Below, piece by piece: positions 1 to 3,443 of a stretch of 57,216 bases of DNA. The notes under the pieces were generated by a model that was not told where the DNA came from, ran no database searches, and saw only the letters and a list, made by a program, of their open reading frames with translations. A program made the position numbers and the translations under genes. The DNA lies in the IMG/VR virus record IMGVR_UViG_3300017917_000305, positions 1 to 57,216 of that record; one strand, written 5' to 3'. How positions within the stretch are numbered: position 1 is the stretch's first letter; every line of letters starts with the position of its first letter. Source of the DNA: a virus.

Positions 1-446
1 ACTAATGGTAAGCTGTTAAATGCTGAAGCAGCGCCGGTAAAGCTGTTGCCCATACCAGCCAACGAGCTCATCATACCAGTCATCTTACCAATGGTGTTTT
101 CAACTGCTGCTGTGAAATTTCTAACGCCTGCTATAGATTTTTCTGTAATAGCTGCTGCACGTTTGCGTTTTTCTTCTTCGTCTTCAATAGCATCAGCAAG
201 AGCTTTACGCTTTTTGATTTCTTCTTCTTGTGCTTTGTTTAATTTGCCAAGATTTTTTCCAGCTTTGTCTAGGCTGTTATAGAATTTTTTAAGTTCAGCT
301 TCTAGTTGTTTTTGATTTTTAATGTCTTTGCCAGACTTGGCAGCTAGGATTCCAATAGCCGTGACTAGTTGCTTGAGAGTTGCCTCTGTGGCTGCATTGT
401 TTAACTTTATTGGCGTGCCGCCAAAATCACCGGTTACTTCGGCCAT
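1..446 (-). CDS. N-terminal part of a coiled-coil tail protein, probable tape measure (runs off left edge)
   Basis: An open frame on the minus strand starts with ATG at 446 and is still open at position 1, giving about 148 residues. It begins MAEVTGDFGG and continues with a strongly charged Lys/Glu/Ala helix (about residues 45-95, runs of EEE and KKRKR), then a Gly/Ser/Met-rich hydrophobic stretch near residues 110-148. That pattern of long helix followed by small-residue hydrophobic segments is typical of tail tape measure proteins. The divergent neighbour is the gp26-type hub/chaperone gene, the kind of gene normally found next to a tape measure. A GATAAATA late box at 495-502 points toward it. 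The frame is real; the tape-measure assignment is inference because the rest of the gene is outside the window. Confidence 0.6.
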   Translation of the reverse strand, partial: MAEVTGDFGGTPIKLNNAATEATLKQLVTAIGILAAKSGKDIKNQKQLEAELKKFYNSLDKAGKNLGKLNKAQEEEIKKRKALADAIEDEEEKRKRAAAITEKSIAGVRNFTAAVENTIGKMTGMMSSLAGMGNSFTGAASAFNSLPL

Positions 447-471: not shown

Positions 472-479
472 TATAAATA
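472..479 (+). promoter_or_regulatory. Late promoter TATAAATA for the gp26 unit
   Basis: A perfect T4-type late box lies 33 bases before the gp26 start. The expected start of transcription is about 485. The box sits in the loop of an imperfect inverted repeat (ATGCGC 465-470 and GCGTAT 483-488, one G-T pair). Confidence 0.75.
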
Positions 480-502: not shown

Positions 503-512
503 GGAGATTAAA

Positions 513-1382
513 ATGGCAGAAATAGCACAGACAGTAATAGAAAAACCAGCAGGAAACCCTCTTGCGAACTACTTTAGACAACCCAAAATTTATATCAGGC
601 TTCCGTCTGAAGGACAGTTCTATCCACAGGGAGCATTGGACCTTAGCGCCACTGGTGAGTACGCTGTGTTTGCAATGACTGCCAAAGATGAGCTGTTGTT
701 TAAAACACCAGATGCTCTAATGAACGGACAAGCTACTGTAGAAGTAATTAAAAGCTGCGTACCAGCAATCAAAGATCCTTGGAAGATGCCCAGCATCGAC
801 GTGGATGCTGTGTTAGTTGCTATTCGAATTGCCACCTACGATAAAAATATGGACGTTAGTGCTAAATGTCCAGAGTGCGGCACACTTAATGACTATGAAT
901 TTAATCTGCTAAACTATCTAGAACAGATGGGCAGTTTTAAATTTAATGCTAGAATTGAAGCTGATCCTTTGGTAGTTAACATTCGCCCTTACAACTATCA
1001 AGAAACTACTAGAGCAGCTATCAAAGCCATTGAGCAACAGAAGATTTTTCAAATTGTCAATGACGATTCTCTCAGCGAAGAAGAAAAAATCAACAAGTTT
1101 GGTTCAAGTTTCTTAAAGCTAACAGAGCTAACAGTCGAAGTTATCTGTGGATGCATTGCCAGTATTGAAACTCCAGAAGGAGTTGTCAGCGATCAAGCAC
1201 AGATCAAAGACTTTATCAACAATGCGCCTAGCGATATTTTTAACAAGATCAATGATCACGTTAATGCTATGCGCAACGACATTGAAATGAAAACTCAAAC
1301 CGTAGGATGTTCTGATTGTAATCATCAATATCAAATCAGCATCACTATGGACCAATCAAATTTTTTCGCAGTAAGATCTTAA
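513..1382 (+). CDS. 26: Baseplate hub / tail assembly protein, gp26-like (T4_baseplate family)
   Basis: A protein of 289 residues matching the T4 gp26 type by the conserved stretch around residues 54-82 (TAKDELLFKTPDALMNGQAT) and the following PSIDVDAVLVAIRIATY region. Two Cys pairs, C119xxC122 and C266xxC269, look like one zinc site that brings together the middle and the C terminus; T4 gp26 (about 208 residues) is shorter. In T4, gp26 acts in building the baseplate hub. The start has a good site (CGGAG, 501-505) and a late promoter. The last codons carry a slippery heptamer, so a share of ribosomes may read into the next frame (see 1358-1406). The gene is divergent from the probable tape measure gene, which suits a tail assembly chaperone. 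Confidence 0.85.
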   Translation: MAEIAQTVIEKPAGNPLANYFRQPKIYIRLPSEGQFYPQGALDLSATGEYAVFAMTAKDELLFKTPDALMNGQATVEVIKSCVPAIKDPWKMPSIDVDAVLVAIRIATYDKNMDVSAKCPECGTLNDYEFNLLNYLEQMGSFKFNARIEADPLVVNIRPYNYQETTRAAIKAIEQQKIFQIVNDDSLSEEEKINKFGSSFLKLTELTVEVICGCIASIETPEGVVSDQAQIKDFINNAPSDIFNKINDHVNAMRNDIEMKTQTVGCSDCNHQYQISITMDQSNFFAVRS

Positions 1383-1406
1383 AACTCTCGTTGCCGGAGA
1401 TCTTAC
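1358..1406 (+). promoter_or_regulatory. Putative -1 ribosomal frameshift signal (slippery heptamer plus hairpin)
   Basis: In the gp26 frame the bases at 1358-1364 read A AAT TTT, a canonical X XXY YYZ heptamer. After a 6-base spacer comes a perfect 9-bp stem, GTAAGATCT (1371-1379) with AGATCTTAC (1398-1406), loop 18 bases, extendable by a T-G pair (1380/1397). Heptamer, spacer length and hairpin are all as expected for -1 frameshifting. The -1 frame is exactly the frame of 1391-1594, giving a 360-residue fusion. The gp26 stop codon (1380-1382) lies in the loop. Confidence 0.7.
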
Positions 1407-1595: not shown

Positions 1596-1621
1596 AAAAA
1601 AGGGCTCTAAGAGCCCTTTTT
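1596..1621. terminator. Bidirectional intrinsic terminator
   Basis: A-rich left flank, stem GGGCTC (1602-1607) / GAGCCC (1611-1616) with a TAA loop, then a T run. The A and T flanks pair as well, so it works on both strands. It separates the convergent genes ending at 1594 (+) and 1624 (-). Confidence 0.9.
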
Positions 1622-3008: not shown

Positions 3009-3443
3009 TTATTTTGCCTTTGATTGTTCTAAAAGACGCTGCCTAAGTATGTTTGAGCCGCCTACTCTGACATTTATAATACCATTATAATAGTCATCTG
3101 TTTCTAAAACTCTGCGTTCAAACTGCTCTCTAGCCTCTAAATAACTTAGTTCTGCCTTAGATTTACAAAGATAAAGTATTTCTCTTGTGAATTTTTCCGG
3201 ACCTAATGCTTGGACGTCTGCGTTTAACCTATCAGATGAACCCCAGTAGTCGCGCCAATCGCTTTCTACTACAGATCTTCTTTTAAGTTTTTTGCCTTTG
3301 AGTGGTGGTTTAGTACGTTTAAATTGTGCTAGTTTCTTGCCTATGTACTTTTGCCCGGTAGTTGTGTTCGTGATGAGGTAAACAAAGCCAATGTAGCCTT
3401 CAGGTATTTCGTTTACTGGTTGATTTTGATACGTCCATTGCAC
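3009..3443 (-). CDS. GIY-YIG-type endonuclease-like protein
   Basis: A protein of 144 residues. The N-terminal half carries a GIY-YIG-like core: GFVYLITN at about residues 19-26 and YIGKK at about 34-38, followed by a basic segment (KPPLKGKKLKRR) and ESDWRDYWGSSDRL. A conserved Arg and Glu lie in the helix and strand after it, as expected for this nuclease fold. In T4-like phages such stand-alone proteins include homing endonucleases (Seg type) and uncharacterised nucleases; this one has no obvious extra DNA-binding domain. The start is GTG, placed directly after the TGA of the preceding small gene, so translation is probably coupled. It is the last gene of the gp55-gp47-gp46 minus unit. Confidence 0.65.
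   Translation of the reverse strand: MQWTYQNQPVNEIPEGYIGFVYLITNTTTGQKYIGKKLAQFKRTKPPLKGKKLKRRSVVESDWRDYWGSSDRLNADVQALGPEKFTREILYLCKSKAELSYLEAREQFERRVLETDDYYNGIINVRVGGSNILRQRLLEQSKAK

Follow-up and report, generated by a model that had tools for sequence, protein, structure and literature searches.

A conserved T TTT TTC heptamer and a predicted -1 frameshift in a gp26-like, putative tail assembly chaperone gene of a T4-superfamily virus

Near the start of the viral DNA analyzed here a gp26-like gene ends beside a second open frame displaced by -1, and the question raised by this locus is whether the two frames are decoded as one protein or as two. The window, by which we mean the whole stretch of 57,216 nucleotides (~57 kb), is IMG/VR virus record IMGVR_UViG_3300017917_000305, positions 1 to 57,216. 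An earlier note on this DNA had proposed a -1 frameshift signal joining the two frames, and we followed this up by comparison with relatives from IMG/VR and from isolates. Every gp26-like open reading frame with a complete 3' end was included, giving 99 distinct sequences.

The locus and its slippery heptamer

The window opens with a divergent pair, a probable tape measure gene on the minus strand and the gp26-like gene on the plus strand (Table 1). The gp26-like protein matched PF12322 (E 8.9e-20, 71.7 bits; gathering cut-off 24.5) and the baseplate hub family phrog_150 (E 2e-24), and its BFVD fold matches were to models of T4-like gp26/baseplate hub proteins (best E 1.3e-23). The box TATAAATA ahead of the gene we take to resemble the T4 late promoter consensus. 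Full-length counterparts of the truncated neighbor matched tape measure PHROGs with E values of 1e-7 (L009) and 2.1e-6 (L011), and these sequence matches point with moderate strength to a tape measure gene. The earlier note had pointed out that in many tailed phages such chaperones are made next to the tape measure gene; here the two genes do adjoin, but they are divergent and the gp26-like gene is not upstream in one operon. Elsewhere in the window a small minus-strand open reading frame at 3009-3443 carries GIY-YIG endonuclease-like motifs (IGFVYLITNTTTGQKYIGKK), recognized by eye only.

Table 1. Features at the gp26-like locus (window coordinates).
Feature	Position	Strand	Evidence or remark
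Probable tape measure protein, N-terminal part, cut by window end	3..446	-	phrog_1107 tape measure, E 5.9e-4
T4-type late-promoter-like box, TATAAATA	472..479	+	33 nt 5' of gp26-like start codon; inferred from sequence
Shine-Dalgarno GGAG of gp26-like gene	503..506	+	sequence
gp26-like / TAC-N short form, 289 aa, C-terminus ...QSNFFAVRS then stop	513..1382	+	PF12322, phrog_150, fold matches
Overlapping heptamer A AAT TTT	1358..1364	+	in frame; kept in 72/99 relatives
Slippery heptamer T TTT TTC, -1 shift (predicted)	1361..1367	+	in phase, 99/99 distinct relatives
-1 frame extension (TAC-C), 75 codons + stop, fusion 360 aa	1367..1594	+	open in all relatives; all-helical model
5' arm of 9-bp stem, GTAAGATCT	1371..1379	+	covariation, alignment A4
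Zero-frame stop TAA, opens 18-nt loop	1380..1382	+	sequence
3' arm of 9-bp stem, AGATCTTAC	1398..1406	+	covariation, alignment A4
Intrinsic-terminator-like hairpin directly 3' of fusion stop	1597..1621	+	consensus match only

The gp26-like frame ends ...AAT TTT TTC GCA GTA AGA TCT TAA, so that two candidate heptamers overlap. T TTT TTC was found in phase in every one of the 99 distinct relatives, down to approximately 30% identity. The T-run was exactly 6 long in all 99 and the base after the heptamer was G in 98. The codon preceding TTT TTC was AAT, GAT, AGT, CAT, ACT or TAT; it always ended in T while the amino acid varied. The probability of this codon choice was calculated conditional on the amino acids and on how these genes use their codons. 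For xxT TTT TTC kept everywhere log10 P was -96.6 over the 99 sequences, which are not independent of each other, -31.4 over 32 clusters at 60% identity and -6.9 over 7 clusters at 40% identity.

Because of this conservation and these codon-choice probabilities we place the slippery site at U UUU UUC, positions 1361-1367. The earlier note had chosen A AAT TTT, which is indeed present in frame at 1358-1364, but the conserved site lies 3 nt downstream of it (99/99 against 72/99). The predicted fusion protein is identical with either heptamer (...QSNFF-R...). The spacer to the stem, previously given as 6 bases, is 3 nt when counted from the conserved site. A heptamer-to-stem spacer of 3 nt is short for a classical stimulator, which weighs against the proposed signal.

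The -1 frame and the downstream stem-loop

After the two Phe codons the -1 frame reads FFRSKILKLSLPEIL... for 75 codons (coding 1367-1591, stop 1592-1594), and the 360 residues of the fusion are made up of 285 from the gp26-like frame and 75 from the extension. The frame was open from the heptamer onwards in 99 of 99 relatives; 96 of these close after at least 70 codons and the remaining three run off the contig. Inside the same gene bodies -1 runs of at least 70 codons occur at 0.45% of positions. Mean column identity of the extension was 66% over 70 sequences, with W35 and R38 invariant. The N domain and the C extension were modeled separately, not as one fused chain, and the extension gave a confident, all-helical model (mean pLDDT 92.7).

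The earlier note had described the small frame as start-less and gp51-like. No ATG or Shine-Dalgarno sequence was found near the junction in the window, where the first codon that could serve as a start is the bare TTG at 1391, and this part of the description stands; the name gp51-like applies only in the sense in which cyanophage records use it. It might nevertheless be argued that the small frame yields a protein by itself, made by termination-reinitiation or by independent initiation, whether from a start within it or from one that overlaps, as the annotation in cyanophages and in the jumbo phages 121Q and Phosso has it. An ATG does overlap the zero-frame stop in 10 of the 99 relatives and some ATG with a Shine-Dalgarno-like core is present in 9. 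Against this, 26 of the 99 lack any ATG, GTG or TTG in the stretch of -40 to +68 nt around the heptamer (57 lack an ATG). Furthermore, conservation in the -1 frame reaches back past the first possible start to the heptamer itself (FFR-x-RLL), and separate initiation would leave the invariance of the heptamer without a reason. We therefore regard it as improbable. No relative among the 99 combined an intact start for the small frame with loss of the heptamer, the finding that the earlier note had named as contrary to its proposal. When the 75-aa extension was used by itself as a tblastn query, as a candidate independent gene, nothing was found in the phage collection, and start codons were not conserved; this candidate was rejected.

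The stem is a perfect 9 bp, and inspection of the sequence confirmed the coordinates reported earlier for stem, loop and stop. Covariation was assessed in 55 distinct sequences which share the register of the window, loci clearly folding in another register being left out. Stem pairs were kept in 89.5% of cases. Double-change cells in the stem numbered 51, compared with 16.4 +/- 2.9 after shuffling; slid registers gave no more than 20. The stem covaries at synonymous sites too: columns 9-36, which are both third codon positions, were paired as G-C in 42 sequences, A-U in 11 and G-U in 2, and were never unpaired. The earlier note had proposed to ask whether heptamer and stem persist while bases change; the heptamer is kept in all 99 relatives and the stem covaries in these 55.

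Taken alone the window hairpin gives modest values, with z -2.28 relative to dinucleotide shuffles and p 0.055 when compared with synonymous recoding. Over 96 sequences folding was more stable than that of synonymous recodings, with a mean z of -1.58 and p <= 0.05 in 43%. In a sister clade (L105, L106, L108, L112, L116 and L118) GGCTTTCG pairs with the more distant CGAAAGCC, and in several jumbo phages no strong structure was found after the heptamer. Because one clade pairs differently and several jumbo phages lack a strong stem, we conclude that the stem is a real but replaceable feature.

These data also bear on transcriptional slippage, by which the T-run would give rise to mixed mRNAs, some of them encoding the fusion. 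The run of 6 T in all 99 relatives is what recommends such a mechanism; known transcriptional slippage, however, requires longer runs than this. Among the 99 no run exceeds 6 T, and each ends with a C in the codon phase which suits tandem tRNA slippage; a covarying downstream RNA stem suits a ribosomal signal, so that we consider slippage during transcription very unlikely. A further reading would take the small frame for the product of decay or of a sequencing error, and the stem for nothing more than a consequence of the resemblance between the K-I-L and E-I-L codons. It can be given almost no credence because the open frame and a conserved extension are kept across the 99 relatives. The arms do encode K/R-I-L and E-I-L, so the protein sequence yields some pairing, and the p value of the window hairpin alone leaves room for this; but in the pair that covaries most clearly both partners are third codon positions, and neither the shuffle nor the slide control reproduced the covariation.

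The heptamer, the open frame and the covarying stem strongly support the proposal of the earlier note that the two frames form a -1 pair of the G/GT type (289 and 360 residues). From the sequence evidence we hold it highly probable that this is one chaperone gene yielding a short and a long form by a -1 shift at T TTT TTC. The virus would be a myovirus of the T4 superfamily with one gene for its tail assembly chaperones. The majority of ribosomes would terminate at 1380 and release the short form (TAC-N, gp26 type), while a minority would pause on the heptamer before the stem-loop and slip back by one base, the two Phe-tRNAs re-pairing on UUU UUU, and so bypass the stop. The product would be a long form (TAC-NC) carrying the helical extension, and both forms may jointly chaperone the tape measure protein in tail assembly. 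In this scheme the signal, its conservation, the covariation and the homology to T4 gp26 and gp51 are established from sequence, whereas the slippage itself, its rate and the chaperone function are inferred, the last by analogy with lambda gpG/gpGT.

Distribution among phages and relation to T4 gp26 and gp51

Both T TTT TTC and the open -1 frame were present in the jumbo phages 121Q, CBB, XbC2, XaC1, pEa_SNUABM_19, PA5oct, Atu_ph07, Phosso and Vibrio phage 2.275, in Salicola phage SCTP-2, and in cyanophages S-RIM8, S-CAM9, S-RIM2 and Bellamy. In the cyanophages the -1 frame is annotated as the "baseplate hub assembly catalyst" gp51, with its start assigned inside the frame. The 60-158 kb of P-SSM2 that was searched contained no match to the gp26-like family.

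Several loci showed variations on this arrangement. In Stenotrophomonas phage CM1 (L141) and Xanthomonas phage XacN1 (L142) T TTT TTT replaces T TTT TTC and the -1 extension is open. In Bacillus phage SP-15 (L140, 1477-2436) the C extension follows the gp26-like gene in the +1 (or -2) frame, with the gene order gp26-like gene, small frame, tape measure gene; the difference in frame is possibly a change of shift direction. On a 318-kb viral contig (L025, 2977-5117) two gp26-like genes lie in tandem. Their identities to the gene of the window are 54% and 34%, and both have TTTTTTC and an open -1 extension, forming a duplicated frameshift module.

T4 has 26 and 51 as two separate genes in divergent orientation. 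By profile comparison T4 gp26 aligned with residues 1-205 of gp51 (E 7e-25, and E 5e-19 in a second comparison), and gp51 has an extra C-terminal part beyond this region. The cyanophage fusion aligned with T4 gp51 from end to end (E 7e-15). When its parts were compared separately, the C extension aligned with gp51 208-249 (E 1.6e-6) and the N part (TAC-N) with T4 gp26 (E 5e-14). Almost all of the window-clade fusion could be aligned with the cyanophage fusion (E 4e-12). The direct match of the window-clade fusion to gp51 had an E value of 1.4e-5 and a probability of 58%, and that of its C extension alone was weak (E 0.006); the window-clade long form is linked to gp51 from end to end by way of the cyanophages. 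Reversed profile controls gave E values of at least 0.19.

On these profile alignments T4 gp26 can be equated with the short form and T4 gp51 with the fusion as a whole (N domain and C extension together), not with the small frame alone. T4-type gp26 genes contained no heptamer, nor is the extension encoded in the -1 frame of these genes, which is expected because a separate long gene exists. We lean, by a small degree, towards a single frameshifted gene as ancestral across the T4 superfamily (the marine clade of the window, jumbo phages of the 121Q/CBB type and cyanophages). T4 genes 26 and 51 would then have arisen by duplication and loss of frameshifting, with the tandem modules of L025 as an illustration of duplication, and cyanophage gp51 would be the C-terminus of a fusion and not a separate protein. 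Part of this reading may already be contained in Vladimirov et al. 2022.

For the T4 hub-assembly proteins gp26 and gp51 the frameshift scheme offers a testable account as short and long chaperone forms. On this scheme cyanophage and jumbo-phage genes at this place which are named "gp51" or hypothetical should be re-annotated as frameshift extensions.

Comparison with known systems

As in lambda gpG/gpGT, a short and a long form would be made from one gene by a -1 shift near the 3' end of the short form, beside the tape measure gene. The heptamer is different, U UUU UUC here and G GGA AAG in lambda, and the gene of the window is divergent from the tape measure gene instead of upstream of it. 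The lambda chaperones were reportedly described by Levin in 1993 and by Xu, Hendrix and Duda in 2004. Tail assembly chaperones of solved structure include 2OB9, 3KLU and 3FGX (PMC9603447). For solved tail chaperones we obtained no relevant PDB sequence match, and no Foldseek match at E <= 0.001 with either domain model. Because no solved chaperone was matched we do not claim membership in the HK97 gp13/lambda G fold family; the locus is placed with lambda G/GT by its predicted mode of working.

In Vandenendeviridae and Andersonviridae, a -1 frameshift in TAC-N has been described. It has an invariant T-rich GTTTTT, no genome has the -1 frame closed, and what lies downstream is annotated as a hypothetical gene (PMC12846349, in the excerpts available). 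These are other families with another motif, and a covarying stem is not mentioned in those excerpts. In the literature available to us, which represents Vladimirov et al. 2022 through citing papers only, we found no description of a covarying stem or of a tandem-duplicated frameshift module.

The T4-like gp26/gp51 proteins have been identified as tail assembly chaperones by Vladimirov, Gautam and Davidson 2022 (Virology 566:9-15), as cited in the excerpts of PMC10885494 and PMC12846349, and the latter attributes to the same work the finding that T4-like phages have poly-T slippery sequences in their TAC-N genes. These T4-like chaperones are homologous to the gene of the window (PF12322/phrog_150); T4 itself has two separate genes, without heptamer or -1 frame, where the window has one gene with a predicted frameshift. 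The link drawn in the earlier note between T4 hub assembly proteins and the lambda-type scheme holds, but it had already been published, as far as the excerpts of these two papers (PMC10885494, PMC12846349) show. On the same sources, the T4-like gp26/gp51 chaperone scheme with frameshifting is known already, and the locus is a further, predicted case of it.
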